From assembly GCA_032209605.1 (NCBI GenBank), contig JASFXZ010000033.1, forward strand, positions 836,001 through 900,000: DNA of 64,000 nucleotides, given 5' to 3'. Position numbers and translations under genes: made by a program. The notes under the pieces were generated by a model. The model had not been told where the DNA came from and did not search any database. It saw nothing but the letters and a program-made list of their open reading frames with translations. This stretch comes from Mactromeris polynyma (lineage: Eukaryota; Mollusca; Bivalvia; Venerida; Mactridae). Positions within the stretch are counted from its first letter, which is position 1. Each line of letters begins with the position of its first letter. This document shows positions 5,552 to 45,936 of this stretch, one piece after another.

Positions 5552-8500
5552 ATGCCTCCACAAAGTGAAAGCGGTGATTTCTATCATGGTTCACGGCTGC
5601 TGACACCGCTGGCAACAGTAACTGGATTGTCTATCGATCAGGTAAATAATTTCTCAGCGTCATGTTGATAGTATTTCGGACGTGCATCTTCTCGGATAAC
5701 TGCAAATCATTGTTAATTTATTTTTATTTTTCTAAAATGACAATTTGTGATCTCAGACGACTATTTATGAATAGTCTTAATGATGTGAAGGGTATGAAAT
5801 TTAATTTATACAAGTACATGAGTTATTGAATTAAAACAGAGGCTGGATGTAAGGGTCCCTCCCCACAGGAACTTGACTAATGTCTATATGTGTATAGATA
5901 TGCATATAAAAGAGAAGGTTTGCAACGAAAGATTTCCAATAAACAGCACTCTCCTTGCACGATAGTCGCCCACATGAAAATAAACTGTCACAGATTCAAA
6001 ATCTTTATATTTGTCGACACTACAATGATTTATCTACCATTTAGTATCCATATATCAACTATCCAACTTACCATGCGGCTTCAGTCCTTCATAAAAACTC
6101 TCAGAAACGCTTTTTTTTATAATATTGGGCTAAACCTGTCCAATTCTCAGTGCCAAATTTTGTTTCTATGTTACCTGTTTGTCGCTATCAGAAGGATCCT
6201 GGAATAAAATCAAGCATGGTTGAACATTTAAATATATGTGCAACTGTCTGTATGCATAAGATTATTCAAATTGCAAAACAGATCGAATAACATATCTCAT
6301 TTGCACGCGACTTCCAACAATGGCTGCCGTATAGTGATAGTGAGTTATTTGGTGTCGAAAATAGCAGAATACTCTATCTGTTTTGCAATTTGAAAACCGT
6401 CTCTTTTATATACACATATAGACATTAGTCAAGTACCTGTGTCCCTCCCTGTACTGATTATGTGCATTAGTCTAACTCCCATACCCGTAGCATGCCCAAT
6501 ACAGCCTTTTACATACTCATAGACTCCCAATTCTAGAGGTACAAACTTTCAAGGTGAAGTCAGGTTCTAAAGCTTTGAAATCAGATCTTTATTTCTAACT
6601 TTAATACTGAACAGGTTAGAATAGGATCTAGATATTTATTTTACTTAATAAAATTATATGCATAACATTTTTCCATTTGGTGTCTATTTTGAGTAAGCAG
6701 TTTTTTGTTCTTTAGTTCAAACAGAAATATGGTATAAGATATTTACTAGTTTTAAAAATCACACATGTATGCATATTATGTGTAAATGAATCTCACTGTT
6801 TGAACCTAAAACATACATATATAATTACTTATTCACTTTTTCAAATGTTAATTTGTTAGTTGTTACAGGAAATTTAGGTGCAAATGCATGTGGTGTATAA
6901 TTTTTAAAAGAAACATTGCTTGCAAGGAAATTGTAAGCAATTGTAATTTCCTCAGCATCTTCGAGTCTGTTGGTCAATACCCATTTCTTAAATGTTGGAT
7001 ACCTTTTCTCCTTTTTTATGAATGCTTATCACTGGACATTTATTTCATACATCTGTGCTATTTATTTGTTATTCCAAGCATGCACAAGTGTATATATCTA
7101 TTCTAATTATTCTACATATTCCCGACAGGTGAACTTCCTGGTTTGTCAGCTTGTCGCTGCTGCACTCGGCTATCCATTCCGAAAGTTTCTCAATCCAAGA
7201 ACTACAAGCCCAACTAAGCGTCATGCTGTCGAACTTCTGCTTGGCATAGCTTTAGTGTTGTTCTGTTTTGGAAGGTGGCTTTATAATTATTGTTTCTTAA
7301 CTGTACCTGTTTGACATCAAGGATGCTAAAGTAAATTTCTAAGTATTCAATTTTCAAATTCTTGTGCAGTGTGAAATTGTTCACAACTGTTCAGATAGGA
7401 AGAGAGACATATTTGAATTAATTGAAATATTCTTTGGACTCTTAATACCCAATGTTTGTTAAACGTAGAAAGTTTCAATATTTGTCTGCATCTACCATAT
7501 ATCTAGACTATTTTGAAATTAATATATTTTTATTGTTCTTTCAGTCAAATATTGCATCTGTTTGTTCACGCAACATTGGGTTACGTTTTGCTACAGTTCC
7601 ATGGTAAGGCATGGATGCCAACTGCTGTATTTGTTGTTGGTATGGGTTACCTATCTTGGTGTCATATATACAGAATGATGCTAGATTATGGTGGTTACAC
7701 ACTGGATATTACAGGGTACGTCTTTCTAGTTTCTCATTACTAGAAAAACTTGGACTGTTTCCCAGCTTGACACTCAGTCTTTCTTTTCATCCGTTCATCT
7801 CAGAGTTCATAAGAATAATAAACAAAAGTCATTCTTTGTGTAAATCGCACATTTTTAATGCTGCCATCTTTTAAGTTGATAATCATCCGACCCTTCTTCA
7901 GGTGGTGGTTTTATGATTGAAGTATATTTAACTAATGTATCATTGCTTACATTCTTACAGTCCATTAATGATCTGTGTTCAGAAGATTACATCCCTAGCA
8001 TATGCTCTACATGATGGTACATACAGGAATGAAAAAGACTTAAACGCAAATCAAAAGAGTAAAGCAATCAAGTAAGTTGTATCTGTACTTTCATTCCTGC
8101 AAAGTTATACAATAAAATCATGGGCAAAATTGTTGAGCGTTGTTGACAGACAAAATAGATTTTTTACTTGTCTGACGATTATTTTACTTGTCCCGGGCTT
8201 CGGGGAAGTAGGTTTTCGTGAAGACGTGTATGTTCAATGTCAAGGACTATGACAAGACTCTCCATATCCCCAACATTTATCTCTTACTGGTTCTGTCTGT
8301 TGAATTGTCTTCTGTTAGTTTGAATATATGCAGATTTTATTATGCCCCTGTCCTTTCCAATAAAGTATTACCCCTGTCCGTCCATCTGTACAAAAAAATT
8401 GGTTTCCAATCAATACCTCTTGAAAGGATGGATGGATTCAATTCATTGATAACAATCTGCCAAATTTTGGAGAAGTTATGCCCCTTTTTCGAATTAAAAA

Positions 8501-11500
8501 ATGGTTTTATATGATTTGTATTTCAGAGAGAAACCAGATATTCTGACTTTCTATAGTTATATATTCTGTTTCCATGGTGTTATGTGTGGTCCCCTGCCAT
8601 TCTTTCATGATTACCTCGCATTTATAGATGGAACTTGTTACAATAAACCAGGAAATGTACAGAAGGTATGTATATTGTGATGCCTCATGTTAGTTTTGAT
8701 AGGGATGCAGTGATGATCGTAAATTTGTGCAGTTGCCAACAATCAATTACGGTGGTGAACAATGCATTGTGCCTGTCTTGTACTCTTTTCCTTTATATTT
8801 TCTCTTTCCGGGACTTACTCTTTGTACTACCTGGCTAGTATAACAAGACTTACTGTATTAGGTATGTACAGTAATCTATTTACATCACCAACTGTCCTTT
8901 GTCTCCAAGCAGCTGACAGCTTCCTCCACAGGAGTACAAGTGATGTTACGTAATGATCTCTTGTCTAATTAGGTCAATCTGATGATGTGTTTACTGTCTC
9001 CCTACCTACCTGCCAAATGTTTTTCGCTCCAATTACTGTATTTGCAGGATTGTTTTTCATATTTTGATCGAGGGAAAAATTGCCAAACAATTTCTATTAA
9101 GAAGTTTTGTTTTTAGAATTTTTTTCCCTGTACCTACCTACATACCCAACTTCAGAGTCTAAGTGTTGGCAGACAGTAAACAAACCTTTTGAAAGGTGAC
9201 CTACACATAGAACACCTCTTGTTTGTTTGTGTAAATGTCAAATACTTCCAACAGAGAAAGACGAATGGTAATTTAAATGTCCCCACTATTCAAAGAATGG
9301 CAAAGAATGGCATAAAGTGTTGACCCTGTCCCCTTGAAATTATCAGTAAATGAGTGAAGAAAGCTTAGTTAGAATAATATATGTTTGTTTCATCGGGTTT
9401 AACGCCGTTTCTCAACGATATTTCAGTTATATACGGCGGCCAGTTCACCTAACCAGTTTTTCCTGGACTGAATTCTTACCAGTACTAACTTACCCTTCCA
9501 CAAGGAACCGGCAACTTCTCCACATGTGGAGGAAAATCAACATTTTTGTCAAATTTTCATGGAAGGGTATGACCTGTGGCGACCGGGAATCGAACCCAGA
9601 TCGCTGGGTTACAAGTCCAGCGCACTAACCACTGGACCACGGCTGCGGCTCTAGAATAATATGAATCAACTTGTCTTTCAAAACTATCAAGTTCATAAAA
9701 TAATACATTTTAACTACAGATTGTTCATGGACTAGATATATATCACATGTTTCACATATCATGTTTCCTCTATTCTTTCAGGAACCACCATCTCCTGTGG
9801 TAAGTTTGACTTAAGATTATGACATCATTTTTCTGGCATCTGATTGGTCGTTTATGAGGTCAGTCTTAAAATTATCCAATGGTAAGACTGCATTCTGCGG
9901 CTGTATTAATTGTTTTAAATCCAGGACTGATACTCTTGATACTCTGATACCATTTTCTAATGTTGTCATGAACCAGTGCGCACATAAACGAAAAGTAAAT
10001 GTTACACATTGGTTTAAAAAAATGGAAATACAATGAAATTATTCCTGACAAAAAAATTAAGGTATACTATGTGGCATTTATAAAAAATTACAACTCACTT
10101 TAATTGGCATTAATTGGTAATAGATATTTAATTGAAAATGAAATAATGATAGTAAGCTGTCATACACATGTCTGTTATTTCAGGAAGCTGTGTTGAAGAA
10201 GCTTGTCATTGCTGCCATTCTTGCTGCACTGATGTTGATTGAACCATTAGTTGCCCCGTGGGAAAAATTGAAAGGTAAGTTTATTGGTAGCTGATAGGTC
10301 ATTTTATGAAACACTTTCTAAAATTGATGACAATAATGATACATGTTTACTTACATAGATTTAGCTTAATTCAAAAATATTTATCATACATTGATTGCAA
10401 CACAAGTAACCAACTTATATATGCCTTCCTCATGACTGCCTCCTAGGTTGTGAACCAGTACTTAGACCCATTGTAGGGATGTTGGCTGGTCAGCCCTGCC
10501 CAGCATAGGATTGAAACCCACAACCTTCATAGCAGTAGTCCTATTCTCTAACATCTACCATGCTCTATATATGCCTGCTGCTTTGAGGAAGACAATAGAC
10601 ACAATGTATTGATTTTGTCTTGTTCATCTGTCTGTCTGTCACAAAATTTGTCCAAAGTTTACTCGGAGTCAGATTAAAATTATTAAAAGATAAACATTTT
10701 TGTCACTTCAATTACTGAATTCAGTGTTCATTGTATTACAGAGGATGAATATTTGTATGAATACTCTTGGGGACATAAGATGATATATCTGCTGTGTAGT
10801 ATGTCCATGCATCGGCCTATGTACTATTTTGCTTGGAAGTTAGGTGAGTTCTTTCTGCTAAATATTGTCAGGTTTGGGTCGAAGGTTACTGATTTTAATG
10901 AGTTCTCTCATAATGCAGCCTTGTCATTGGTCAATTTTAAGGCTTTGCTCAGAACCAGCCAATCGGAGGTTTCGGCTTTGAGACTGGTATCCAAGTTGAG
11001 ATCTATCACATCTGACCTTAGACGACCTGCTTAGAGCTTTTGGTGGCTTGCATTGGAGACCATGACAGGAAAGATTTTTCCACTATGCTAGTACTGATAT
11101 GTGATAGAAATATAAGATATTATGGTCGTAAATGAAGGAATTTATTCAACAAGTTTTCTGAAAATGATAAATTATTTAAAATACAATCCTTCTTCTGAAA
11201 AAAAGTTCAGTAATATAGCCAGACCTTGCTTATTCAACAACCGTCTATCTGAATACTCGGTATCATCAGAAATAAATATCAGGTGCGGATGTATCTTCTT
11301 ATGCACATCAAATTGAAATGGGCCATTAAAAAACATGTATTATTCGAAATAAAATTTTGAACCCTATGAATTCAAATGAACAAAGTCTGACTGTATATAC
11401 AGAGGAAACCAATGGTGTGTCTTAGCCTCATAAATCACAGAAGCAAGAAAAATCACCAAATGCCTCCAGTTACATTCGTGTATCTGTATTGTTTAAAAAG

Positions 11501-14500
11501 AGTAAAACTCTCCCGGCGCCGTCCCTCAATGTTTAATTTACAAACCTGTCAAACTTTCTGGATTACTTTATATTATAGTACCGGTAGCTGGTTACCAAAC
11601 ACAGATTTGTAATCTCAGGTTCTACTTTAATGTTAGACAGTTTTATGGTGAATTTAAGGTGTTTGGAAGTTGCATTTTCTCACAAATGTTGCATCAGAAG
11701 GTAGAATTAAGAAAAATGTATTGTGATTTTAATGACTGTTGAAATGTAGGAAGAATGCGTGTCACCTGTTGTTGATCAAGGTTAGAATAACATTAATAGT
11801 CTGGTTACTTCACAGATTTAAATAAAATTTCTTCTAAAGTTTGTCTTATTTAGACAAAGGTTGATTGGAGGTTACAGAGTTAGCAATGTGAGTAAAATTC
11901 ATTAAAATAGCCTGAAGCAGGCGATGTGTGTAATTAACAAGTTATTGTTTCTTGTCTTTCGATTGCTCGGAAAATAAAATCTGACATTTACGGCAATCTG
12001 TAGGAAATATCAGGAGTGAAGTGTGATCCTAAACTTGCTGAACTACGCCTAATGTGTCAGTTGCTGAACTACGCTTAATGTGTCAGTTGCTGTACTACGC
12101 TTAATGTGTCAGTTGCTGTATTTGGAAAGTTGTTGTTTAATTGATTCAATATTGACCTAAAGACAGGCTTGTACTCATGTATTTTGTGATGAATTGTTTG
12201 TTTCATTAGATTTTTTTGTGAAGATGAATACAATAAACTAATTTGATAAAGGGGAAATGCAGAAACCTTTTTTTGGTTAAGTGCTTCATTATTTGATTGT
12301 TTTACTTCATTGGTTGGTTGGTCGGTCACTTGCTCAGTTGATGCATTGATTGGTGTATTGATTTATTGATTATTGATTGATACATTGATTTATTGACTGA
12401 TTTATTGACAAATTGATTGATACATTGATTTATTGACTGATTGATTGATAAATTGATTGATACATTGATTGAATGACATATTGAGTTGTTGACTGATTGA
12501 TTGATTGGCTTACATATTGATCAATTACCTGATTAATTTATAACATATTTTATTGATTGATTTTTAATTTGTTATTTATTGATCAATTGATTAATTTTCA
12601 GGAGAGCTGGTCAATAATTCATGTGGCCTGGGTTTTAGTGGCTATGATGAAGATGGAAATGGAAAATGGGAATCGCTCAATAATGTTAACATTTATAATC
12701 TCGAGGTAAGAGTAATCCATTTATAGGTATATCAGATGCGGGTTATGATTGAACTAAAGTCATTGTCACAGTTATTGTCCTTGTCTTTGTGACTGTAAAA
12801 TGTTAGCCCAATATTTTTAACCAATGAGATTGTTCAGATGCTAGAATTTTCCTTCCTGATGAAGAAATGCTACAATGTAATGGAGAAGCTTCTTCTTGGT
12901 TAAGTAAGATGGTACTTTATAAATGTTGTACTGAGAGTTTCACTTGCTCCATTAGATAACTTATACATGTACCTGTCAAAATCATAAACTTTATATTCAC
13001 CCATTATTTATGTGTATGTCATTTGTCCCTTGTGTATTTATACATGTACCGGTATATTACCATGTATTCTTGTCTTGTGTGTGTCCTCTGTGCATTTTGT
13101 ATGTAGAATTTCCTGGTCGAGTTGTGCATTCATTATTTTTTAACCAGTACACTGTATTTATTTATACCTTAAAAATGTCCTTCAAGTTATGACAGTATAA
13201 GACAGTTAGGCTTGGTGTATGAGAATGAGATTCTATATAAGACAGTTAGGCTTGGTGTATGAGAATGAGATTCTATATAAGACAGTGAGGCTTGGTGTAT
13301 GAGAATAAGATTCTATATAAGACAGTGAGGCTTGGTGTATGAGAATAAGATTCTATACGGGTTAGGGTTAATATTTACGGTTTCAAGTATATTTACAATT
13401 TATGTTTTGGACCTTCAAACATTGTACAAATTTATCTGACTGAAATTCACCACTGTAAAACTCTCTGTGGGTATAAAACTGAGAAGGGAGACAAAACTCA
13501 AATCTCTTGTTTCTGATTGGTTCTTTCTGATCTCCCTATTAAAATTGACTAATGGCAAGGCTTCACTGGGAGGCTAATGCAAACTTGATCCGTGATGTGT
13601 TCCATCCATTCAACCCTTTCCTCCTTGCTAGCAGTCCCCCTAATATTTGTTTTTTTGGTCGGATGGACAATTCCTTGCTCCCCTATTCTCACACATGCCC
13701 CTAATGTGGGGAGGCATTGACGTATGTATGTTGCATTCCCTGTAACAGCTTGACACTGTTTTAATATCTCAGATCATATAAAGTTATAATTTACTTTTAT
13801 TCAGGTTAGCACTAGTTTGAAAGTGAACGTAGAATCGTGGAATGTTATTACAGCTCAGTGGTTGAGATATACACTGTATGAGAGATGTCCACCCTCCATC
13901 GCTACATGGATTGTGTTTCTTGTCAGCGCATTCTGGCATGGTTTCTATCCCGGCTACTATATTGCATTCCTCACTGCTGCTTTGTTTACAACCGCCGCTA
14001 GATTGGTAAGTCTTCTGTCTTCTTCTTGTCTGATAAAACTGTATTTAAAATTTGTAATCAATACTGATACCTATAATTGATATCTATACATACTGATATC
14101 TATAACAATTTTGGGAGGCTTTGTGGTCCGTGGTCTGACTCCTGATCTGATGGTGGTGGGTTTGGCAATGTTGAACCGCAAACTGCACTGTCCCTTAATA
14201 AGGCTTCCAGTACTGGTAAGTCACCCAGGTAGCAGTCATCAGGAGTAACTTATATAAGTTGTAAGAACTTGTTTCACAGTCGATGTAAGATGAATAAGTT
14301 CACACCTTTTTATAACAATTTTGTAGCATTATCTAAACTCATGTTTTGTTTTCTGAAAATGTTATGGTTTTGACTTAAATTTACTGAACATAGTTTCAGC
14401 TATAATGTTAAGAAATGTTTCTCAGAGTTTGCCAAATGAGTCTGACAGACTGACAAATATGGGGGACATTTATTTAGTCTGGTAAACAAATTGCAAATTT

Positions 14501-17500
14501 TAGTGAAACAAAGAAGGAACTACTTTTTTCAGTCTGGTAAATGCTGGCTGTGTTTGGCGAACTCTCTGCTTTCAGATATTTTATGAATGTGTTTTGAATA
14601 TGTATCATGTTTGATTGAAATCTGCTGAATTAACAATTTGTTGTAAGCGTGTGTAATGACTTAAGTCATGCTGAATGTTATATCAAATACAGTCGGACCT
14701 TGTTCATTCACATTCATCGGGTCCAAAATTCATTTCAAATACTACATGGTTTTTCGAATAGCTCATTTCAATACCACGTATTCCATTTATTTCGGATGCT
14801 ACTGAGTATTCGGATAGAAGGTTGTCGTATATACGAGGCCTGACTGTATATTTTACTTGCATATTGTTTATGTTGCGTTTATAAAACATGTAATGTTCTA
14901 TTTTCAGTTTTATTTGATTACTAATTACATAGTTATCGAGAGTTTGGTACTAAAGTATGTAAACTTTTGTTGAAGTACAAGTCGCCATATTTTTGCACCA
15001 AACTCTCGAATGATGGAGTTGCAATCTAACCAATCATCATAACACAAACATAAGACATAGCAGTATGTTGAGAAAAAATGTTCCGACTATTTTATTCATA
15101 TATAAGGCTCAAACTTCGTTGTTGTTTTTCTGGTAATTTTCCGAAACCTTATTCCAAAAATACAAGGCGGCTTTTGTTTTAAGTACTTTTGTCATGGCAT
15201 ATAACTAACTGCAGCTTATAATTTCGTGTTTACATAGAATATTTGTGAAACTAGAGTGTCTATTTTTTCTAACCTTTGATTTATGTTTGTGTATGGTTTT
15301 ATCAGATCAATGTATTCATGTTTCCATGAAAGTATATATTGAATCTTGATTTATCATGTATTGCTAGTATGTATTTAATGTGCATGTGTTTGGTTTCCAT
15401 TATAACTAAACTGTGATTGGAGACCAGTCTCAAAACTCAGGCATCTGATTGGTTGTTTCTGAACTCAGTCAAAAAATCAACCAATGACAAGGCTGCATTC
15501 TGAGACTGGTCTCCATACTCAGTTTTATAACTTTTGGCCATGAAATCAGTTATCTGTGTCAACTTAGTTTAACCATTTAAACTAAGAAGCTCTTACTTTT
15601 CTGCTAAAAGCATGTAAAACTGGTGAAAACTTGTTTGTAATTAGAACTAACTGACAGAAAAGGTCAATAAAAGACTCGTATTTAATGTAAAGAATCATGC
15701 ATATTTACTGGTACATTGCATGTAATAACTCAATCTGTTAACTGTAAGGTTGTCAGGTAGGGATTGTTGTCATACATTTATGTCTGGATCAATACATCTG
15801 ATAGGGCTGCAACGATACAGATGTCTCTATGGTTTCCATTACTCCCCTTTTGGTTTCTCTTATTCGGTTCAGTTATATCAATACATTCATAGATACAATG
15901 CTAATGAATTACAAACAATTCTTAATAACTGAGTGTAATACATGTAATAACTAGACATGAATATTTGACTAGGTAAGTAGATCTAGAACTTTGTGTTATA
16001 ATATAAAATGAAGTAGTGCAATGACCAGAAATAGAAACTTTATGTCAGGTAATAAAAGTGAACAGTTACAATAGCTGTGTAACTAAAAGATAATGAGTAG
16101 TAAACTTATAAGTTCTCTGACTAGAATATTGATTCAGAAAAAAAGTCATCTGACGTACAAAACTGAATATTCCTAAGACAGTACTGAACTGAACCATGAG
16201 AAAAAAGAACCAAAACTAATCTTTGGTTTATCGTTGCAGTCCTAATATCTGACTTCCAGGATTTTTAGAGATAAAAAATGAGGGTTGGTGGTTCAATATA
16301 AGGGTTAATAAGGTTACAGGAACCAGTATGTGTGTTAGGCCTAATGGTAAATCATTCATTATGATATACTAGAGTATGTATACTGCGGTGAAAAAAACAA
16401 CTCCTCACAGACAAATCCCTTCCAGACAAAACTCCTCACAGACAAATCCCTTCCAGATAAAACTCCTCACAGACAAATCCCTTCCAGACAAAACTCCTCA
16501 CAGACAAATCCCTTCCAGACAAAACTCCTCACAGACAAATCCCTTCCAGACAAAACTCCTCACAGACAAATCCCTTCCAGACAAAACTCCTCACAGACAA
16601 ATCCCTTCCAGACAAAACTCCTCACAGACAAATCCCTTCCAGACAAAACTCCTCACAGACAAATCCCTTCCAGACAAAACTCCTCACAGACAAAACCCTT
16701 CCAGATAAATCCCTTCCAGACAAAACTCCTCACAGACAAATCCCTTCCAGACAAAACTCCTCACAGACAAATCCCTTCCAGACAAAACTCCTCACAGACA
16801 AATCCCTTCCAGACAAAACTCCTCACAGACAAATCCCTTCCAGACAAAACTCCTCACAGACAAATCCCTTCCAGACAAAACTCCTCACAGACAAATCCCT
16901 TCCAGACAAAACTCCTCACAGACAAAACCCTTCCAGATAAATCCCTTCCAGACAAAACTCCTCACAGACAAATCCCTTCCAGACAAAACTCCTCACAGAC
17001 AAATCCCTTCCAGGCAAAACTCCTCACAGACAAATCCCTTCCAGACAAAACTCCTCACAGACAAATCCCTTCCAGGCAAAACTCCTCACAGACAAATCCC
17101 TTCCAGACAAAACTCCTTACAGACAAATCCCTTCCAGACAAAACTCCTCACAGACAAATCCCCTTCCAGACAAAACTCCTCACAGACAAAACCCCTTCCA
17201 GACAAAACCCTTCCAGACAAATCCCTTCCAGACAAAACTCCTCACAGACAAAACCCCTTCCAGACAAAACTCCTCACAGACAAATCCCTTCCAGACAAAA
17301 CCCTTCTAGACAAATCCCTTCCAGATAAAACTCCTCACAGACAAAACCCCTTCCAGACAAAACTCCTCACAGACAAATCCCTTCCAGACAAAACTCCTCA
17401 CAGACCAAACCCTTCCAGACAAATCCCTTCCAGACAAAACTCCTCACAGACAAATCCCTTCCAGACAAATCCCTTCCAGACAAAACTCCTCACAGACAAA

Positions 17501-20500
17501 ACTCCTCACAGACAAATCCCTTCCAGACAAAACTCCTCACAGACAAAACTCCTCACAGACAAATCCCTTCCAGACAAATCCCTTCCAGACAAAACCCCTT
17601 CCAGACAAAACCCCTTCCAGACAAAACTCCTCATAGACAAATCCCTTCCAGACAAAACTCCTCACAGACAAATCCCTTCCAGACAAATCTCCTCACAGAC
17701 AAATCCCTTCCAGGCAAAACTCCTCACAGACAAATCCCTTCCAGACAAAACTCCTCACAGACAAATCCCTTCCAGACAAAACCTCTTCCAGACAAAATCC
17801 CTTCCAGACAAAACTCCTCAAAGACAAATCCCTTCCAGACAAAACCTCTTCCAGACAAAATCCCTTCCAGACAAAACTCCTCACAGACAAAACCCCTTCC
17901 AGACAAAACCCCTTCCAGACAAAACCCCTTCCAGACTAAACCCCTTCAATTGATTTATGTTAAAGCAAACAAAACCCTGTTTCTACTGGATGGAAAACTC
18001 ACTCCAGCGAAAAATACTAAGGCGGACAAAAAAATTACCTTACCAAACTGAAACTTTTTTTCCAGGCTAATATGTATGTTAGTATACAAATAACATTGAT
18101 AATGGTTTATAGTGTTTTAGCATGTACATTTTCCCTCAGTCTGACTGGGAAAGTATTCGTACTTCCAGTAGTCACACTTAAGAGAGTGTTTTTGTCCTAC
18201 CTGAAATATTCATTGGGGTTTGTCCCTCTGAGTTTTGTCCTACGTTCTCCAGTAATTGCGTAGTATGTTTATATTGTCTATGTTTTATTTTCTGCTGCGA
18301 TTTTCCTTTTTATTTTGTTCTTGTTTATGTTATTCTATTGTAGGTACGGCGGAATATCAGACCGTATTTTTTGCAATCATCCAGACATATGTATTTCTAC
18401 GACTTTATTACGTTCTGGTTTACCCGATTCGCTAATTGCTATTTTGTTTCCCCATTCACGGTTCTTGAGTTTATGCATGCAATAAGGCTGTATACGTAAG
18501 TATGCAAAGACTTAATATAAATATGTCCAGAGGTATATGGGTGGTGATGAGTAAAATCATATGTTTATAGAAATAGAATGCATGTATCTTGTCGAGCATG
18601 TCTGTCGATCTACTTTATGTAATACAAAATATCCGCCTGTATTAATTTGTCAAAATTGGGTTTGGTGATCTGTTAAGGATATATTATGCTCATTTTTTTT
18701 GTTCATTTGTTTACCTAAACAAGCATGAAAAATATACTTTATCTAGTTAAATCTTCAATAAATATGCATTATCACAGAATACATTTATAATGAATTTCTC
18801 TGTATTTGTCGAAAAAAGACGTTTGTATTATCAGAAAATTAAAAAAAAATCCAGTTTTTTAACAAGCGTGTGTATTTTACTCTTTTCGGTCTGTTAGTTA
18901 TATGAGTAAGCAAGATTGTTTTAAACAGTTTAACATGGCAATGGTTCTTTTCAATGATGTTTAAGACTATGTAACTACATTACTGGATGAAACCCATTAC
19001 AATCACTGTAGGTTTAGATGAGCCAGATACATCTCTTAGTATAACCAAGGAACAAACTGTCTGGTTTCAGAAACCTGTAATTTTTAATGTACTAATCCGA
19101 TCAGTGCTTGTTTAACAGATGTTGATACAAATATAGAGCATGCAATACAGACATTAAAATGTAAAATACACTTGTATAACAGGAACTTATCACCCAAAAA
19201 ATGTTGAAGCTTTAATAGTTTGGACTGAAGGAGGGAAAGAAGTGATTTCTTTATATTTGGTCCAGCATTGTTCATTAGGCCCTAGAGACATTACATGAAT
19301 ACTTATCACTGCCTGTACACTTCATTATGTACATGTCATACTTGTAGGGTTTGCAATGTACTATTTGTATATGTAGTATGTTTCTCCTTTAACAATTATA
19401 TGTTTAGTACTTTCAGTTGGTTAACTAAAGCAAAGTTACTGCTATTTGACATGCTGCAGTTTTAGTTTAAATTGTTGCATGTTGCATTGCCTTTATGTAT
19501 CGTGTCGTGACATTTTGACTTTATATCATCAATGTGACACCTTGCTATGTTGTATCGTGTCGTGACATTTTGACTTTATATCATCAATGTGACACCTTGC
19601 CATGTTGTATCGAGCCGTGACATTTTGACTTTATATCATCAATGTGACACCTTGCCATGTTGTATCGTGTCGTGACATTTTGACTTTATATCATCAATGT
19701 GACACCTTGCCATGTTGTATCGAGCCTGACATTTTGACTTTATATCATCAATGTGACACCTTGCCATGTTGTATCGAGCCTGACATTTTGACTTTATATC
19801 ATCAATGTGACACCTTGCCATGTTGTATCGAGCCGTGACATTTTGACTTTATATCATCAATGCGACACCTTGCCATGTTGTATCGAGTCATGACATTTTG
19901 ACTTTATATCATCAAAGTTACACCTTGGTGTGATCTATTGTGTAGTGACATTTTGACTTTGTATCCTCAAAGTGACACCGTGCACTGTGACATTTAGACT
20001 TGATAACAAGGCGGTAAACTGGCATATTATATATATATAATTGTGCCATGACATTACAACTCAATGACAGAGCGGTCTGTTGCCATATAGTTTTGTGTGC
20101 TGACATAATGTGACAAGATAGCAAAATGGTACATTTCAATCTGTGATGCCATATAACTTAACAGCAATAAGCACTACGCTGGTTGTTAAATAGTACATTT
20201 CAATCTGTGATGCCGTATAACTTAACAGCAATAAGCACTACGCTGGTTGTTAAATAGTACATTTCAATCTGTGATGCCATATAACTTAACAGCAATAAGC
20301 ACTACGCTGGTTGTTAAATAGTACATTTCAATCTGTGATGCCGTATAACTTAACAGCAATAAGCACTACGCTGGTTGTTAAATAGTACATTTCAATCTGT
20401 GATGCCATATAACTTAACAGCAATAAGCACTACGCTGGTTGTTAAATGGTACATTTCAATCTGTGATGCCATATAACTTAACAGCAATAAGCACTACGCT

Positions 20501-23500
20501 GGTTGTTAAATAGTACATTTCAATCTGTGATGCCATATAACTTAACAGCAATAAGCACTACATGGTTGTTAAATAGTACATTTCAATCTGTGATGCCATA
20601 TAACTTAACAGCAATAAGCACTACGCTGGTTATTAATAGTGTTTGATGTGACTGTGCTTGCTTGATAGCATCATAAGCACATTGGGCTGGCTTTGGTGCC
20701 ACATTTGGCTGGTTATGGTGCCATGCCACTTAACAGCAAAATGGCACATAGCAATATTTGTGATACAATGCAACATAACAGCACTATTATATGGCACATA
20801 AATTTTAGCAGATTATATAATTGCAAAATGTCACATTCCTCTGTGTATGGTGTCAATTGTGTTGAAACTTTGTTTTTGTTTTTCCGCTGGTTAACAAAAT
20901 TGTAACATAAGTTTCCAAATTTCCTCTTAATATTCTGATCAACAGCATGAGAAGTCCTCATAAACATATAATCATCTTTTTCTATTCAAATTAATGTCTT
21001 CCAAGTAGCATGATAGTGATTCAGTTATCATTATGATTTAAGAGGTATTGTGATGCACAGATCATTGTGATTTGATCCAAAAATAAGAAGTATTGAGATA
21101 TTCAAGCTGTTGATATCCAAAAATCATAGTGATTAAAGAATTTTGATACAAAAACCATTGTGATTTAAGAAGTATTGTGGGTCAAAAACTGTTGTAATCC
21201 CATGTTATGATATTGGTTTGTTTATCTTGACTCAAGTGTCTGTTTGATTCGGTTTGTGGTGTAAATGTTGTTTTGTGTTCTAACTTCAATGCTAGATTTC
21301 TAACACTAGACCAGTTTCAGAATGCAGGTTTGTGATTGGTCAGTTGTAAGACTGAGATCGGAACCGACCAATCAGAGGCTTGAGTTTTGGGACTGGTCTT
21401 AATATCTCGGGGATGATATGTATGGAATGGTCATATAATGAATTATCAGTTCGACTTACAAATCTCGGCTCTGTTGTTTGGAGACTAGTCATGAAACTCG
21501 CACATCTGATTGGTTGGTTCTTGATGCAGTCTTAAAATTGACCAATGGTAAGGCTGCATTCTGAGACTGGTCTCCAAACTTAGTTGTTTAACCTTTTGGT
21601 CTGATTTTTTGTTGTGTCTTGATAATCTTTGTATTATCAGTTCAATTTTGTGTTGATTCCATGGTAACTTGCAAGCTTAGCTTACAAATTTGCTTACTTC
21701 TATTTTTTCAGACGGTTTTTGCTTTATTTGCACTATTTTTCACTATCACTATTAGATTAGATCAAGATCAAACTCATGCTTTTTCAGCGATTTTAGATGC
21801 GGCGAGCACTGCATATTTGACATTATTCATAAAAATATACTTTTTGCATCGTTTCTTATTTTTATAGGTAAGACGTAATGTTCGGCCATTTTTCATCCAG
21901 TCAAGTCAACTGAAATTCATCTATGACTGTATAACGTTTGTATTTACGAGATATGCTAATTCCCTTATGGTCGTCTCATTTGTACTATTGGACGTTAAGA
22001 GTTGTCTTACATATTTCACGTAAGTGACTGTGTTGTTTACTTAACTGTAAGTAATTAAATGGAGAACCAGCACATTGTTAGCTCCTCGGTTTTGAAACAC
22101 ACAAAGAGTTATTGTCATAGCTTGGTCGTTGCCTGCAACCGAATGTTAAATGTTGTGCTTTGTTCAGTTTCTGAGAAAGGTTAAGTCCTAATGCTAACGT
22201 AACCTGCAGGCAAGTGTCCACATCCGCTTATGGTGCTCTGTTTATATACCAGTGCACCGTGTCCGTCCATCTGTCTGTTGGTATAAACAAAAGTATTAAG
22301 AATAACATGCCTTCACATTGTTAATAATTATCTTCATGTATATTTATTGTTAAAACTAATATTTTGATCAACAATTTCGGTTGGCATACTGAATATGCAC
22401 CAATGAGTTTGAATTTGTCTAGAAAGATTTATTGTTAAATGAATGATAAGGACATCGGTTCAAATTAACTTACTGGCTAGTCAACGCTTAGCTAGCTGCC
22501 TGCCGGTTTATCTCAGTTGATTAAGTATGCACCTACCAATGTGGAGGTTGTTGGTTCAAGCTCCATCAAGGTGTTTATTCTCAATAGATAGTTCCCACAT
22601 CTACAATATTTACCTCCCTTGTTCTAAATCATCAGCCATTTTGATAGGCAAAACTGATAAGCACTAATAGGATCAATTCCAAAATATGTGATAATTGAGA
22701 AAATACCGAGAGAATTTGCATGTGACAACAACTTTTTCTTCAACTTTCTGAGCCATCTACCCACAAGAGCATAACAAATCAGTTATTTTTAAATATCTGA
22801 TTATTCCCTATAAAGTTTAAGATAATTTGCCTGTCAATATGGCCTACTACAGAACAAGGGAGGTAACAATTGTAAATGTGGGAACTATCAATATCTTTAT
22901 CAATATATTCATTGTTGTTTGTCCTCCACTTCTGATTGATATGGGAAAATTGTCAGTTGCTTGCTGAAGAACAGATTAGTTCTGTTTGGTAACCCAGGAA
23001 TACTTGCCAGGTCAACCGTCCCAAGTACATCACTGTTTGGTAACCCAGGAATACTTGTCAGGTCAACCGTCCCCAGTACATCACTGTTTGGTAACCCAGG
23101 AATACTTGTCAGGTCAACCGTCCCCAGTACATCACTGTTTGGTAACCCAGGAATACTTGTCAGGTCAACCGTCCCCAGTACATCACTGTTTGGTAACCCA
23201 GGAATACTTGTCAGGTCAACCGTCCCAAGTACATACTGTTTGGTAACCCAGGAATACTTGTCAGGTCAACCGTCCCCAGTACATCACTGTTTGGTAACCC
23301 AGGAATACTTGCCAGATCAACCGTCCCCAGTACATCACTGTTTGGTAACCCAGGAATACTTGTCAGGTCAACCGTCCCCAGTACATCACTGTTTGGTAAC
23401 CCAGGAATACTTGTCAGGTCAACCGTCCCCAGTACATACTGTTTGGTAACCCAGGAATACTTGTCAGGTCAACCGTCCCCAGTACATACTGTTTGGTAAC

Positions 23501-25465
23501 CCAGGAATACTTGTCAGGTCAACCGTCACCAGTACATCACTGTTTGGTAACCCAGGAATACTTGTCAGGTCAACCGTCCCCAGTACATACTGTTTGGTAA
23601 CCCAGGAATACTTGTCAGGTCAACCGTCCCCAGTACATACTGTTTGGTAACCCAGGAATACTTGTCAGGTCAACCGTCCCCAGTACATACTGTTTGGTAA
23701 CCCAGGAATACTTGTCAGGTCAACTGTCCCCAGTACATACTGTTTGGTAACCCAGGAATACTTGTCAGGTCAACCGTCACCAGTACATCACTGAAATACT
23801 GTTATATTACATGTAACATCAAGTTAACAGCAAACAATTAATGTGAATTCCATTGATGAAATAATTTGATGGTTCATTGTGATAATCATTAGCTTGCCAT
23901 TTCCCATAGAGTTATACATGTTTCCCAGTACCCATGAAATTCTACAGTAGAGTCTAATATCAGGAACAACAAATTGGAACTTTTCCCTATATAACCTTAA
24001 TTCCTTGCCTAATTCTTAATTCCTCTTGCATGGTCCTAAAGCTGGGTCTGAGGTTATGTTTTGAAACCAGTCTCAGAATGCTGCCTTGCCATTGATCAAT
24101 TTAAATTCTGTGCTTGGATCCAACCAATCAGTGGCTTGGGTTTTGTGACTGGTTTCCAAACTTTGACATTATAACCTAAAACCCAGACCATTCACATGTC
24201 TACAAATATGCTCTAGTTTATCCTAATCCATTTTCACTCCCGAGTTATATTCATGAAGCAATTACACAAACCAAATTGGTATTTCTTTTGAAATACAAAT
24301 ATTTCCATTATGTATTTAATTATTCATTTACACGGTTATAGGAATTTTATTGTAATATTAATAATTTAAAGGTTAACTCTTTGATTTTCAATGTAGTATA
24401 AAAGATAAAGTAGCAATGTTATATTTACTGAGTAAAGAATTGTTATTGATAAAAACATTCCTGTCACAGGTACACTTGTATGTAATGTTATTCAATGTTA
24501 TTATTTCAAGCAACTAACGCACAGAGCTTATTTATCATTGTACTCAAGTGCTTCTCAGAAACAGTCTATTTATAGCTCAGTTCATACTCTCTTTTATAAC
24601 TCTGGTACAGGGGGTTGGGGTGGGGGGGGGGGGGGGAGACAGACTTGACGTTGTTCTTTCAGTCAGTCTCTCTGTTATCATTTCTTTATGTATCGAATGT
24701 ATTAGTAAAATATGGTTTTATAATATTAATAATTTAATATTTATTATTTGAATAATTGCCCTGTAAGTACTTTCTCAAAGAAATCAGAGTATGCAGAAAT
24801 AACCAAACAAAGCTACAAAGCAATAAAACTATTTTATATGATCTTCTGTAAGAATTTTGTGATGCCGTGTTCATTTGTTAGAATGAATGCTAGAATGAAT
24901 GCGATAGTAACTGAGATATACCATTAGTAGTTACCTCCCTTTGTCCGCAAGCCATTATCCTTAAATTGTAAGTGAGTTAAACCAAAGGAGACTGTCACGA
25001 GTTCTCTCACTTTATCACTTCTGGAGTTCTCTCCCTTCTACCCTTCTAAAGTTTATGTGTAAGTAGTATTATCAAAGAGCTAAATACCAGTATTGAGGTC
25101 TTCGGTATTATATACAAAATGGAGAGAACTGTAGAAGGGATAAAGGGAGATAACTTGTGACAGTCTCCTGTGAGTTAAACATTCTAAGAGTTTATCACCA
25201 AGGTGATTATTTCTTAGTCAGCTCTCTCCATAAGTCTATTCAACTCTTAAAAATATGATTAATTTTAAACTTTCTAAGCAATATTGATTTGATATTTAAA
25301 TTTCTTAGTAAAATTTGAAAACCGCTCATTATAACTGATTTATTCTATTTTAGCTGTACGTACTGGTGGTTACATATTCTCTCACTCGGAGCGATCATAT
25401 ACTTCAACTTTATTCAGAAAATGATTCGACCAGCCAAGAAAGAGAAGACAGAAAAGACAAATTAA
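5552..25465 (+). CDS. MBOAT1/2-type lysophospholipid acyltransferase
   Basis: This is a membrane-bound O-acyltransferase of the ER that re-acylates lysophospholipids (Lands cycle). It most resembles vertebrate MBOAT1/MBOAT2 (LPLAT). Exons: 5552-5641, 7129-7274, 7545-7715, 7961-8071, 8527-8665, 9782-9799, 10184-10274, 10742-10843, 12602-12705, 13805-14005, then either 18344-18495 or 21868-22019, then 25354-25465. All have AG/GT borders and phases that join. The product is 478 residues with either alternative exon; the vertebrate proteins are about 495-520. Diagnostic stretches include VNFLVCQLVAAALGYPFRKF (residues 31-50), QKITSLAYALHDGTYR, GFSGYDEDGNGKWE and YYFAWKL. The family catalytic pair is Asn337 (ESWNV) and His369 (SAFWHGFYPGYY), both in the 13805-14005 exon. 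Multiple hydrophobic segments fit a polytopic protein. The C-terminus is lysine-rich (KKEKTEKTN) but is not a canonical KKXX signal. Substrate choice (PE, PS or PC) cannot be read from sequence. Confidence 0.95.
5850..6455. mobile_element. MITE-like inverted-repeat element in MBOAT intron 1
   Basis: Outer arms at about 5868-5918 and 6399-6444 are reverse complements (AACTTGACTAATGTCTATAT against its complement). They are flanked on both sides by similar CCCTCC-containing sequence. A second, inner inverted pair (ATTCAAATTGCAAAACAGAT at about 6265 and its complement at about 6377) lies inside the right half, which suggests nesting. The 105-codon open frame at 5890-6207 overlaps this element and is not a gene. 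Confidence 0.6.
9381..9651 (-). mobile_element. tRNA-derived SINE with 11-bp target-site duplication
   Basis: Read on the minus strand, the element starts with a tRNA-like head: an A-box-like GTGGTCCAGTGGTTAGTGCG and a B-box GGGTTCGATTCCCGG, spaced as in a tRNA. A body follows that includes GTTAACGCCG-type core sequence common in molluscan SINEs (family knowledge, from memory). Direct repeats TAGAATAATAT flank it at 9370-9380 and 9652-9662, giving clean insertion borders. It lies in the MBOAT intron just before the 18-bp microexon. The head is part of a SINE rather than a stand-alone tRNA gene, because the sequence continues into the body without a tRNA terminator. Confidence 0.85.
9782..9799 (+). 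CDS. 18-bp microexon of the MBOAT gene (EPPSPV)
   Basis: TTTCAG precedes and GTAAGT follows six codons, GAA CCA CCA TCT CCT GTG. The phase is 0 on both sides, so it can be included or skipped without changing frame. It matches the short variable EPSP-type loop seen in vertebrate MBOAT1/2 at the same place, between the IDGTCYN segment and the next hydrophobic helix. This small exon would be missed by ORF-based gene finding. Confidence 0.8.
10430..10565 (-). mobile_element. tRNA-derived SINE, second family, degenerate
   Basis: On the minus strand it contains a B-box-like GTGGGTTTCAATCCTATG. It shares order and sequence with 14110-14260 (plus strand), including ATGACTGC..CC and CCAGTACT blocks, so the two are copies of one SINE inserted in opposite orientations in the MBOAT introns. 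Confidence 0.5.
10911..11003. mobile_element. MITE, GAGACCAGTCTC family, copy 1
   Basis: Short palindromic element: AATGCAGCCTTGTCATTGGT at one end and CCAATCGGAGG...GAGACTGGTATCC at the other. It lies directly after the exon ending at 10843 and is a diverged member of the family best seen at 15410-15535. Confidence 0.5.
11215..11399. mobile_element. pogo/Tigger-like MITE, copy 1
   Basis: Ends read CAGACCTTG...AAGTCTGACTGTATA, and the interior carries TCTGAATACTCGG and TATTATTCGAAAT blocks. Family ends of the form TA-CAGTCGGACC with a TA target are typical of pogo-like elements (family inference). Confidence 0.5.
12035..12120. repeat. 26-bp tandem repeat, 3.3 copies
   Basis: The unit TTGCTGAACTACGCCTAATG plus TGTCAG occurs three times exactly in register (12035, 12061, 12087) with one or two substitutions, then a partial copy. 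It is intronic in the MBOAT gene. Confidence 0.9.
12335..12600. repeat. TTGAT/ATTGATTGA simple-sequence tract
   Basis: About 265 bp of degenerate TTGAT-type pentamer and tetramer repeats run right up to the acceptor of the MBOAT exon at 12602. The polypyrimidine tract and branch region of that exon therefore come from repeat sequence. Confidence 0.85.
13201..13360. repeat. 40-bp tandem repeat, 4 copies
   Basis: Units begin GACAGTTAGGCTTGGTGTAT at 13201, 13241, 13281 and 13321. Copies 1-2 and copies 3-4 share private differences (TTAGG against TGAGG, AATGAG against AATAAG), so the array grew by duplicating a changed unit. Confidence 0.95.
13590..13755 (-). repeat. Dispersed repeat family G, copy 1 (minus)
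   Basis: Its reverse complement begins near GTTACAGGGAATGCAACATA and includes CAATGCCTCCCCACATTAGG. The same blocks occur at 43600, 46786 (minus), 48535 and 56155. It is non-coding and has no assigned class. Confidence 0.6.
14110..14260 (+). mobile_element. tRNA-derived SINE, second family
   Basis: The plus strand carries GTGGTCCGTGGTCTGACTCC followed by a degenerate B-box, then the CCAGTACTGGTAAGTCACCC block shared in inverted orientation with 10430-10565. Intronic. Confidence 0.5.
14688..14850. mobile_element. pogo/Tigger-like MITE, copy 2
   Basis: The left end TACAGTCGGACCTTGTTCAT and right end GAGGCCTGACTGTA are inverted repeats bounded by TA. The interior has TTCGAATAGCTCATTTCAA and GAGTATTCGGATAG. 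This is the best-preserved copy in the window. Confidence 0.65.
15410..15535. mobile_element. MITE, GAGACCAGTCTC family, copy 2 (best preserved)
   Basis: The left arm GATTGGAGACCAGTCTCAAA and right arm TGAGACTGGTCTCC are inverted repeats. An inner pair (CTGATTGGTTG and CAACCAATGACAAGGCTGCA) surrounds a short AT-rich centre. Total length is near 115 bp. Seven recognisable copies and further degenerate ones lie between 9.8 and 31.1 kb. Confidence 0.7.
16398..17946. repeat. 31-bp dimeric minisatellite, about 1.55 kb
   Basis: About 50 copies of a 31-bp unit, itself two related halves: CAGACAAATCCCTTC (15) and CAGACAAAACTCCTCA (16). The 3' third shows halves deleted, duplicated or mixed (runs of CAGACAAAACCCCTTC), so unequal exchange occurs at the half-unit level. 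All open frames through it are repeat translation, not genes. It lies in the intron just before the first alternative MBOAT exon. Confidence 0.97.
18344..18495 (+). CDS. MBOAT alternative exon 11a (mutually exclusive candidate)
   Basis: Acceptor TATTGTAG and donor GTAAGT bound 152 bp that start in phase 0 and end with two bases of a split Thr codon. The translation begins VRRNIRPYFLQSSRHMYFYD and continues ITFWFTRFANCYFVSPFTV. It aligns without gaps to exon 11b over 51 codons with about 25 identities, densest in the first 31. The second half (LEFMHAIRLYT) departs from the vertebrate MBOAT1/2 sequence. It encodes the segment right after the catalytic His helix, so it probably forms part of the following transmembrane region. 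Confidence 0.88.
19498..19990. repeat. 55-bp minisatellite, about 8 copies
   Basis: The unit carries GTGACATTTTGACTTTATAT, CATCAATGTGACACCTTG and a CATGTTGTATCG block. Some units lack GT after GAGCC (53 bp). The last one or two copies decay before 19990. It lies between the two alternative MBOAT exons. Both-strand open frames are repeat translation. Confidence 0.95.
20129..20650. repeat. 64-bp minisatellite, about 8 copies
   Basis: The unit contains GTACATTTCAATCTGTGATG, CCATATAACTTAACAGCAAT and AAGCACTACGCTGGTTGTTA. Starts are spaced exactly 64 bp (20131, 20195, 20259). CCATA and CCGTA variants alternate in the early copies. Diverged relatives continue to about 20830. This is the second array between the two alternative exons. 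Confidence 0.95.
21306..21400. mobile_element. MITE, GAGACCAGTCTC family, copy 3
   Basis: CTAGACCAGTTTCAGAATGC and TTGGGACTGGTCTTAA are the inverted ends, with GATTGGTCAG and GACCAATCAG inside. It lies between the alternative exons. Confidence 0.6.
21478..21582. mobile_element. MITE, GAGACCAGTCTC family, copy 4
   Basis: Ends GTTTGGAGACTAGTCATG and TGAGACTGGTCTCCAAAC, with CTGATTGGTTGG and GACCAATGGTAAGGCTGC inside. It is about 290 bp upstream of alternative exon 11b and close to copy 3. Confidence 0.65.
21868..22019 (+). CDS. MBOAT alternative exon 11b (mutually exclusive candidate)
   Basis: Acceptor TTTATAG and donor GTAAGT bound 152 bp, the same length and phase as exon 11a. The translation begins VRRNVRPFFIQSSQLKFIYD and continues CITFVFTRYANSLMVVSFV. 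It keeps the QLK..YD.IT and VV.FVLL..K..LT pattern of vertebrate MBOAT1/2, so it is probably the ancestral form. Splicing both 11a and 11b would add 304 bp and shift the last exon out of frame. Skipping both would also shift it, so only one can be used per message. Confidence 0.9.
22499..22575 (+). mobile_element. tRNA-derived SINE head
   Basis: TTATCTCAGTTGATTAAGTA resembles an A box, and TTGTTGGTTCAAGCTCC resembles a B box (GGTTCAANNCC type) about 35 bp later. It abuts the MITE at 22583. No clear tail or target-site duplication was seen. Confidence 0.5.
22583..22893. mobile_element. MITE with ~40-bp terminal inverted repeats
   Basis: The left arm (GATAGTTCCCACATCTACAA, then TATTTACCTCCCTTGTTCT) and right arm (AGAACAAGGGAGGTAACAAT, then TGTAAATGTGGGAACTATC) are reverse complements with few mismatches. 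The interior is about 230 bp and non-coding. It is in the MBOAT intron after exon 11b. Confidence 0.75.
22982..23792. repeat. 50/51-bp minisatellite, about 16 copies
   Basis: The unit contains CTGTTTGGTAACCCAGGAAT, ACTTGTCAGGTCAACCGTCC and CCAGTACATCA. A one-base-shorter variant (ACATACTG instead of ACATCACTG) dominates the 3' part. Because 51 is divisible by 3, long spurious frames of up to 162 codons run through it. Confidence 0.97.
24055..24165. mobile_element. MITE, GAGACCAGTCTC family, copy 5
   Basis: Ends TTGAAACCAGTCTCAGAATG and TTTTGTGACTGGTTTCCAA, with GCCATTGATCAATTT and CCAACCAATCAGTGG inside. Confidence 0.6.
24972..25180. mobile_element. MITE with 10-11 bp target-site duplication (Mutator-like)
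   Basis: Inverted arms AGGAGACTGTCACGAGTTCT (from 24987) and the complement of GTGACAGTCTCCT (to 25169) enclose a short interior. Direct repeats GTGAGTTAAAC flank the element at 24972-24982 and 25170-25180. A 9-11 bp duplication suits a Mutator-type element; the class is inference. It is about 170 bp upstream of the last MBOAT exon. Confidence 0.7.
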
Positions 25466-44573: not shown

Positions 44574-45936
44574 TCACTCTAAATCGAACATTCGTATTCT
44601 GTCATTTTCATGCATGTAAACAAACAGTTTGCGTAATTTTCGATGGAAAAACAATGACATTGGTTTCAAAATGCCATCTTCTTTCTTCACGATCACTCCC
44701 ATCTTTGTACCATCGTATCTTAATTGCACTACACTGTTTGAATTCTCACCAGCAACAAATACATTCCCTCTCCCATCAATACACACTCCACCTGCTGCAT
44801 CAATATTTGGATCTTTGATTGTAGCGATATGATTTCCTTTCTTATCAAGACACACTAATCGATCATAACCACCAACAAACATATAATCTCTGCTGTCACA
44901 TAGTGCGATTTGCATAGACAACATTAACAGATAATTTCCACTGCTGTCTTTAGATATAGTTTGTAGCAATGTACCAACCATGTTGTATATGTATATTGAT
45001 AAACTATGATCGGAAACATATAGTTTCTTATCCATGTACGCAACACTGTAGCATTCATGCTTCAGTTGTATTTGTCGTGATAGTGTCATTGTTTGTCCTA
45101 TAGTAACCAACTGGATCATTTTACGATTAAAACATGCCACAGCAACCATGTCGTTCTTTACTCGACATACACCACTGGTCTTATAAGGCAGATCAACGTG
45201 ATCTACTACTGACAACTGCACTATGTCTACTAGTTTCAGTTTGTTATTAGCAAAATCTGCAATGATCAATTCGTTATCACCTAAAGGACAACCTCCTCTT
45301 ATCTTGCATGTGCTAGTATCGCTTGGTATCCTAGCCACAATATCTCGACATTGCTTAATTCTGTAAGGTACCGCTGTGGTTTTATTTTCTAGTTTTATCT
45401 GACCAAAATTGTCAATTTCATGTAGAAATTCTAATAGAGATTTTTCTGCAACAAATGAAAACACATTGTCCTCAGTGAATGTTTCAAGCACTTCTTCAGA
45501 ACTGTTAATGTCATCTCGTTCCTTCGTGATGGTTGAAGAAACGAGTTTCGAGCAGACAAACTTTTGTGATTTGTTGCCTTCAGCTCGTCGGATTTTCTCG
45601 CCAAGCTCTACAAATATGTTCAGACTCGATTTTATTGTTTCATTGGCATTTAATAGTTCCGCCTTCATTTTATCGTACAGTAATTGAACTTCACCCTTAG
45701 CTTCTTCTTTCAGGCGATCAAGTATGACATCTGTTGCCCTTCTTTGTTCGGTGATTGCAAGCAATGAATTTTGTTTGGCACGTTCTAAAGTCTGAAGATA
45801 GATATTGTTGGAGTTTTGTAGTGTGGACTTCAAACTTTCCGTCAATTTCTGCAGGTCTTTGAAAGTTTTGTCAAATTCTCCATCTTTGGTGATCTGATCT
45901 ACATCATCTGGGATTGAATGTATGTCGGTGCAAATT
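44574..45936 (-). CDS. B-box/NHL large exon B, intact, no first exon of its own
   Basis: Starts after TTTCAG at 45936 in the same phase as the sibling large exons and runs open for 1363 bp to the stop. It encodes ICTDIHSIPDDVDQITKDGE (end of B-box 2), a coiled coil (ESLKSTLQNSNN..., roughly the first 100 codons) and NHL-type blades (DIVQLSVVDHVDLPY, GVCIDGRGNVFVAGENSNS). No B-box exon was found between it and gene C. Joined to gene C's first exon it is in frame and gives 566 residues, so it may be an alternative last exon of gene C. Otherwise it is a silent duplicate kept open by recency or gene conversion. No methionine near the start of the domain region would give a sensible independent protein. 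Confidence 0.75.

Follow-up and report, generated by a model that had tools for sequence, protein, structure and literature searches.

Here we describe a duplicated coding exon in a putative lysophospholipid acyltransferase gene of the clam Mactromeris polynyma, whose two copies, exons 11a and 11b, are probably used as a mutually exclusive pair. The gene, of the MBOAT1/2 type, occupies 5552-25465 on the + strand of the window, by which we mean the whole 64,000-nucleotide stretch that was analysed (C227:836001-900000 of the 793-Mb assembly). It has 12 coding exon positions, and position 11 is the duplicated one. We put the probability that the copies are mutually exclusive and both in use at about 0.8. 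An old tandem exon duplication would then supply each working mRNA with either 11a or 11b, and the choice would replace TM10, the tenth membrane helix, together with the beginning of the helix after it, alongside the catalytic chamber, leaving TM4 and TM5 unchanged.

The exon pair and its reading frame

Exons 11a and 11b are each 152 bp long, in phase 0 and open, and each is preceded by AG and followed by GTAAGT. The acceptors read TTGTAG/GTA for 11a and TTATAG/GTA for 11b, and the donors TAC/GTAAGT and CAC/GTAAGT. A preliminary description of the window had proposed an equal-sized, same-phase pair of 152-bp exons flanked by AG and GT and lying directly after the helix that follows the catalytic histidine, and the coordinates, lengths, dinucleotides and position all agree with this. 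Its estimate of about 25 identical residues was close; the two exons share 24 of 51 residues and 82 of 152 bases. They differ at 21 of 51 first, 19 of 51 second and 30 of 50 third codon positions, with a higher density at third positions than at the other two (30/50 vs 40/102, Fisher p 0.024). Using a splice-site matrix trained on the 10 other donors and 10 other acceptors of the gene, we ranked all candidate sites in 14006-25353. Among 728 GT dinucleotides, 16 score at least as high as the 11a donor and 8 at least as high as the 11b donor; for the acceptors, the corresponding counts are 9 and 10 of 578 AG dinucleotides.

A tblastn search of the window with 11a, lengthened by 10 last-exon residues, retrieves 11b (E 2.6e-12) and, the gene's own last exon aside, nothing better than E 0.13 that could be a third copy. 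Across the assembly, 11a and 11b each match themselves once, with the partner exon second. Further genome-wide matches are confined to a paralogue on contig C249, described below, and to weak hits (E 0.19 for 11a, at least 0.027 for 11b), three of four of which contain stops. Long minisatellites occupy all three introns around the pair (Table 1).

A transcript joining 11a to 11b would meet a stop codon starting at base 2 of 11b. This lies 148 nt short of the exon's end and hence of the last junction. As a general rule, a stop that far upstream of the last junction should trigger nonsense-mediated decay. Skipping both exons gives a frame of 437 residues with a shifted tail, a stop in the last exon and one membrane helix, the tenth, lost; because this frame ends in the last exon, the product is not caught by the decay rule. 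The preliminary description had held that using both or neither exon shifts the last exon out of frame and so forces the choice. The forcing stands, with the details revised: joint inclusion meets a stop within 11b rather than a mere shift, and double skipping leaves the 437-residue frame. The joint-inclusion product would thus be stopped early and presumably removed by decay, and the both-skipped product would be an enzyme without its tenth membrane helix, so that the clean outcome would come from the reading frame itself.

Enforcement by frame has precedent in human exclusive-exon clusters, 377 of 629 of which (60%) hold exons of a length not divisible by three according to the available part of PMC5740500. 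The same part reports that reads joining the two exons of a pair are tolerated when the frame is broken, and reads joining 11a to 11b would therefore not refute exclusivity here. Two other means of enforcement were rejected. Steric exclusion does not fit the 3372 nt between the 11a donor and the 11b acceptor, and a mixture of U2 and U12 spliceosomes does not fit the placed sites of the gene, which are GT-AG with a U2-like consensus. Exon 11b also begins GTAAGA right after its acceptor AG (21862-21876). The exon 10-11b junction, TTG/GTAAGA, scores 7.8, equal to 11b's own donor, and the 11a-11b junction, TAC/GTAAGA, scores 4.6. A rebuilt donor at an exon start is a feature of recursive-splice exons. 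Re-splicing from the 11a-11b junction could delete 11b and rescue the 11a mRNA, and recursive splicing might in this way help enforce the choice, which we regard as highly unlikely.

The two variants among relatives

A homologue search with the 11a isoform returned 318 proteins at E <=0.001 among 7995 scored, of which the best 120 were used. The nearest relatives are from Mactra antiquata (81%), Ruditapes philippinarum (isoform X2, 70%) and Mya arenaria (isoform X2, 67%). Their exon-11 segment is 11a-like in Mactra and Ruditapes and 11b-like in Mya. Each variant is therefore present in annotated proteins, albeit of different species (11b in Mya isoform X2, 11a in Ruditapes isoform X2), and the "isoform X2" label carried by both in public annotation puts alternative isoforms on record. 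In another protein record of Mya arenaria, P0005, an 11a-like segment precedes the 11b one, as in the window; upstream of the exon this record is identical to the other Mya record, P0003, at 284 of 287 aligned residues. The preliminary description had pointed to other bivalve genomes as a place to look for the duplicated exon, and at the protein level Mya has it. Among the best 120 of 318, only P0005 has two matches to the exon-start motif, a count that does not bear on second exons in other genomes, protein records showing one isoform each. Searches with residues 388-462 of each isoform returned four proteins each and no additional clam with 11b. P0002 and P0003 head 90%-identity clusters with 5 and 3 other members.

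Window 11a is identical to its Mactra counterpart at 42 of 51 exon residues (314 of 391 over residues 1-391) and to that of Ruditapes at 35 of 51 (282 of 391). Compared with Mya 11a, the counts are 29 of 48 in the exon and 201 of 287 in the preceding residues, and window 11b matches Mya 11b at 30 of 51 residues (59%) against 271 of 391 (69%) over residues 1-391. In the comparisons with Mya, identity in both exons falls about 10 points below that in the remaining protein. From these alignments, exon 11 appears to be constrained much like its surroundings in clams.

The preliminary description had taken 11b to keep the conserved, vertebrate-like pattern and 11a to diverge in its second half. The relatives compared here contradict this. 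Among 115 other proteins (P0049, which is without the exon, was excluded), 94 are nearer to 11a over the whole exon, 13 are nearer to 11b and 8 are ties; over residues 418-442, 108 are nearer to 11a and 3 to 11b. Exon 11b also lacks Tyr424, which 111 of the 115 keep. Scored against these relatives, window 11a reaches 102.8 bits and window 11b 84.2, the second half accounting for 46.3 and 20.2 bits. In favor of the earlier view are the first-half scores, where 11b leads with 64.0 vs 56.5 bits, and the second MBOAT1/2-like gene of this genome, whose exon 11 is slightly nearer to 11b (41.2 vs 36.2 bits). A small bias may also be present, as the relatives were found with an 11a query, and no vertebrate-named protein is among the best 120 of 318, so that the comparison speaks to these 115 relatives and not to vertebrate likeness as such. 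Mya 11b, at 97.6, falls among the scores of the 11a copies (74.7 to 102.8), and neither variant looks degenerate in sequence.

To place the duplication we built a tree from the exon only, with 43 rows: both variants of the window, the 11a segment of Mya, and 40 of the best 120 (P0001-P0004 and P0006-P0041). Like the approximately unbiased (AU) tests, it draws on only 51 columns. Window 11a, Mactra, Ruditapes and Mya 11a group together (96/80), and window 11b groups weakly with Mya isoform X2 (89/70). The test does not reject a single group of all six clam copies (p 0.429); it does reject a duplication confined to the species of the window (AU p 0.019). Individual residues add to this picture. 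Phe425 is present in all four 11a copies and in 1 of the 115 other proteins, and His406 in all four 11a copies and 3 of 115. Tyr424 is kept by all four 11a copies, is replaced by Leu or Ile in both 11b copies and is lost in 4 of 115 others. Met425, found in both 11b copies, is not rare, with 13 occurrences among the 115. The rare fixed residues (Phe425, loss of Tyr424 and His406) favor a single origin. As Mya belongs to the order Myida, and Mactra and Ruditapes to Venerida, a single duplication older than the Myida-Venerida split is favored by these sequences, though not proven.

The putatively swapped helix and competing explanations

The structure models considered here are of relatives' proteins. 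In the AlphaFold model of the Mactra 11a form, exon 11 covers the end of the helix after the catalytic histidine, a loop, the helix at 404-431 and the start of the helix at 434-443. The model of the Mya 11b form has a nearly identical layout (mean pLDDT 92.8, and 93.6 for Mactra). In these models exon 11 encodes TM10. Residue 425 aligns with MBOAT7 Met410 and residue 422 with MBOAT7 Tyr407. Residue 426 aligns with LPCAT3 Leu450, and residue 422 with LPCAT3 Met446 in a profile alignment (residue 421 in another alignment, owing to a gap). All four of these MBOAT7 and LPCAT3 residues are named as lining the acyl pocket (PMC10267149, PMC8617236). We infer from alignment that Phe/Met425 is an acyl-pocket position, and this fixed difference makes altered acyl-CoA preference the lead mechanism. 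The earlier suggestion that the swap could affect the acyl chamber gains from this match to a named MBOAT7 residue. According to the MBOAT7 paper, nearly all variable headgroup determinants of MBOAT1, 5 and 7 sit in TM4/TM5, and conserved segments of TM9 and TM10 contribute part of the headgroup pocket. TM4/TM5 are untouched by exon 11. The available passages of PMC12979248 contain nothing on TM10.

The likeliest effect of the choice would be a shift in fatty acyl-CoA selection through Phe425 vs Met425 and Tyr424 vs Leu/Ile, which would give two Lands-cycle activities from one gene. Given an exclusive pair in use, we hold such a change tentatively, at somewhat less than an even chance. It competes with a possible, if rather unlikely, reading in which the swap is real and acts instead on stability, localisation, dimer contacts or lysolipid preference. 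That reading concerns the effect and not the exon pair, and it draws on the fact that most 11a-11b differences lie outside the named pocket positions and on the part of the headgroup pocket assigned to TM9/TM10. The fixed difference at the acyl-pocket position 425 speaks against it, as does the concentration of variable headgroup determinants outside exon 11. As a whole, the proposal that one clam gene yields two lysophospholipid acyltransferases of different acyl-CoA choice through a pocket-helix swap, kept since before the Myida/Venerida split, is doubtful.

Several observations weigh against the exclusive pair or its proposed effect and age. We infer from sequence that both exons are spliced in vivo, and this standing itself counts on the negative side. 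The splice sites of both 11a and 11b receive lower scores than the majority of the gene's other sites (10 donors and 10 acceptors). P0005 joins both exons in one protein, with 11a ended after 48 residues; we take this joining as an annotation error in a poor model, because the stretch of exons 6-9 is also absent from it and 11a is cut short. In the tree, 11a and 11b are not sisters, and 11b falls weakly with P0006 (Sinanodonta) and P0012 (92/80). The AU test does not reject independent duplications in Mya and in Venerida (p 0.257 and 0.23), and Mya 11a has almost equal identity with window 11a (29/48) and with Mya 11b (28/48). Finally, of the four pocket positions that could be aligned, 11a and 11b agree at three (418, 422 and 426), so any substrate effect could be small.

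The other explanations account for less of the evidence. We find it quite improbable that a single exon is in use and the other is a dead or dying duplicate. In favor of this reading are the lower score of window 11b (84.2 vs 102.8 bits) and its loss of the near-invariant tyrosine, and use of either exon in M. polynyma itself rests on sequence. Against it, both exons are open and have consensus sites, the conservation of 11a in Mactra and Ruditapes roughly equals that of the remaining protein, with that of 11b in Mya somewhat lower (59% vs 69%), and annotated proteins carry 11a in two species and 11b in another. The stop at 21869 lies 148 nt ahead of the last junction and could also serve a regulated on/off switch, with 11a-11b joining as a poison splice that lowers the enzyme level by decay and the protein difference secondary. 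We consider this improbable, as it leaves unexplained why clams from two orders keep distinct residues at 406, 424 and 425. That the duplicate reflects an assembly artefact or the collapse of a second gene copy is scarcely credible: only 82 of 152 bases are common to the exons, one intact gene is present, each exon occurs once in the assembly, and the Mya model has the same exon order.

The gene, its surroundings and known systems

Exons were placed by similarity and splice consensus, and the start codon (ATG at 5552) is our choice. In the spliced model the remaining coding exons have consensus splice sites and the frame is unbroken throughout 5552-25465, giving a product of 478 residues with either version of exon 11. 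The protein contains a single Pfam domain, MBOAT (PF03062), with 105.7 bits for the 11a form and 112 bits for the 11b form against a curated cut-off of 27. Trp368-His369-Gly370 (WHG) and the upstream Trp336-Asn337 (WN), invariant across 62 aligned relatives, are present. The closest named matches in the homologue search are lysophospholipid acyltransferase 2- or 6-like, and structure models of two relatives match LPCAT3 and MBOAT7, as expected of the lysophospholipid-MBOAT fold. These features bear out the MBOAT1/2 family call of the preliminary description, and by sequence the gene is an intact lysophospholipid acyltransferase of this type, with predicted activity. Micro-exon 6 has consensus sites; as its 18 bp are divisible by three, the reading frame by itself is no proof of it.

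Table 1 Coordinates of the exons, the joint-inclusion stop and the minisatellites in the window.
Feature	Position	Strand	Basis
Exon 1, coding part (ATG at 5552)	5552..5641	+	spliced model
Exon 2	7129..7274	+	spliced model
Exon 3	7545..7715	+	spliced model
Exon 4	7961..8071	+	spliced model
Exon 5	8527..8665	+	spliced model
Exon 6, 18-bp micro-exon EPPSPV	9782..9799	+	spliced model; Mactra relative has APPSPV there
Exon 7	10184..10274	+	spliced model
Exon 8	10742..10843	+	spliced model
Exon 9	12602..12705	+	spliced model
Exon 10, catalytic histidine His369 in FWHGFYPGYY	13805..14005	+	spliced model; invariant Trp368/His369
Minisatellite, 31-bp unit, ~50 copies	16399-17947		
Exon 11a, residues 392-442 (His406, Tyr424, Phe425)	18344..18495	+	counterparts in Mactra, Ruditapes, Mya
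Minisatellite, 55-bp unit, ~9 copies	19496-19983		
Minisatellite, 64-bp unit, ~8 copies	20124-20640		
Exon 11b, residues 392-442 (Leu406, Leu424, Met425)	21868..22019	+	counterpart in Mya isoform X2
Stop codon met only when 11a is joined to 11b	21869..21871	+	frame computation
Minisatellite, 51-bp unit, ~16 copies	22982-23793		
Exon 12, coding part and stop; last membrane helix and tail	25354..25465	+	spliced model

A second MBOAT1/2-like gene is located on C249 of the same genome (L011, L020; ~1315830-1338129, minus strand) and is 40-49% identical over the compared pieces. Its exon 10 lies near 1328041-1328247. Exon 11, at 1315982-1315830, is a single 51-residue match of the same extent, 35% identical to 11a and to 11b, and no second copy is found at E <0.1 in the 54 kb examined. 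On this evidence from sequence, the exon duplication would belong, within this genome, to the gene of the window only. The window also contains four long minus-strand open frames of 236-489 residues (32116-33195, 33192-33902, 44574-45845 and 49544-51013), none of which has a Pfam match at E 0.001.

As splicing, the pair is of an ordinary kind, that of tandem-duplicated exclusive exons held by frame. It resembles the human exclusive exons in the available part of PMC5740500 in having homologous neighbours, equal length and phase, and frame-based exclusivity, but it belongs to a different gene family, and the main text of that paper, taken apart from its supplements, mentions neither MBOAT nor acyltransferase nor ACSL. 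In the literature searched (splicing of MBOATs and lysophospholipid acyltransferases, exclusive exons in bivalves, MBOAT1 and MBOAT2 in molluscs, and the acyltransferases oysgedart and nessy), a coverage outside which most subscription papers fall, we came across no exclusive exon pair described for an MBOAT, judging mostly by titles. No MBOAT or acyltransferase is named in the main text of PMC9803972, a study of splicing in the Manila clam. The gene shares its sequence family and its catalytic His and Asn with MBOAT1/2 (LPEAT1/LPCAT4), and it differs from the C249 gene, which shows one exon 11.

Acyl-CoA synthetases differ in fold from the MBOATs. The closest functional parallel we found is among them, in human ACSL6 and ACSL1, where, according to the available part of PMC1543647, an exclusive exon pair swaps a short fatty-acid gate motif with one aromatic Phe/Tyr changed. 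Both cases would be exclusive exons in a fatty-acyl enzyme; the clam gene, in contrast to the short motif of the synthetases, encodes an MBOAT in which a whole membrane helix would be swapped. In the available parts of PMC10267149 and PMC8617236, the account of what determines acyl-CoA preference in lysophospholipid MBOATs is based on bound or docked substrate and single mutants. A natural swap of one chamber-side helix, with the remaining protein constant, makes the role of that helix directly testable. If the two forms differ, this would suggest splicing-level control of membrane acyl composition in clams, and it may represent a parallel to the ACSL6 gate exons, which act one step upstream in acyl-CoA use.

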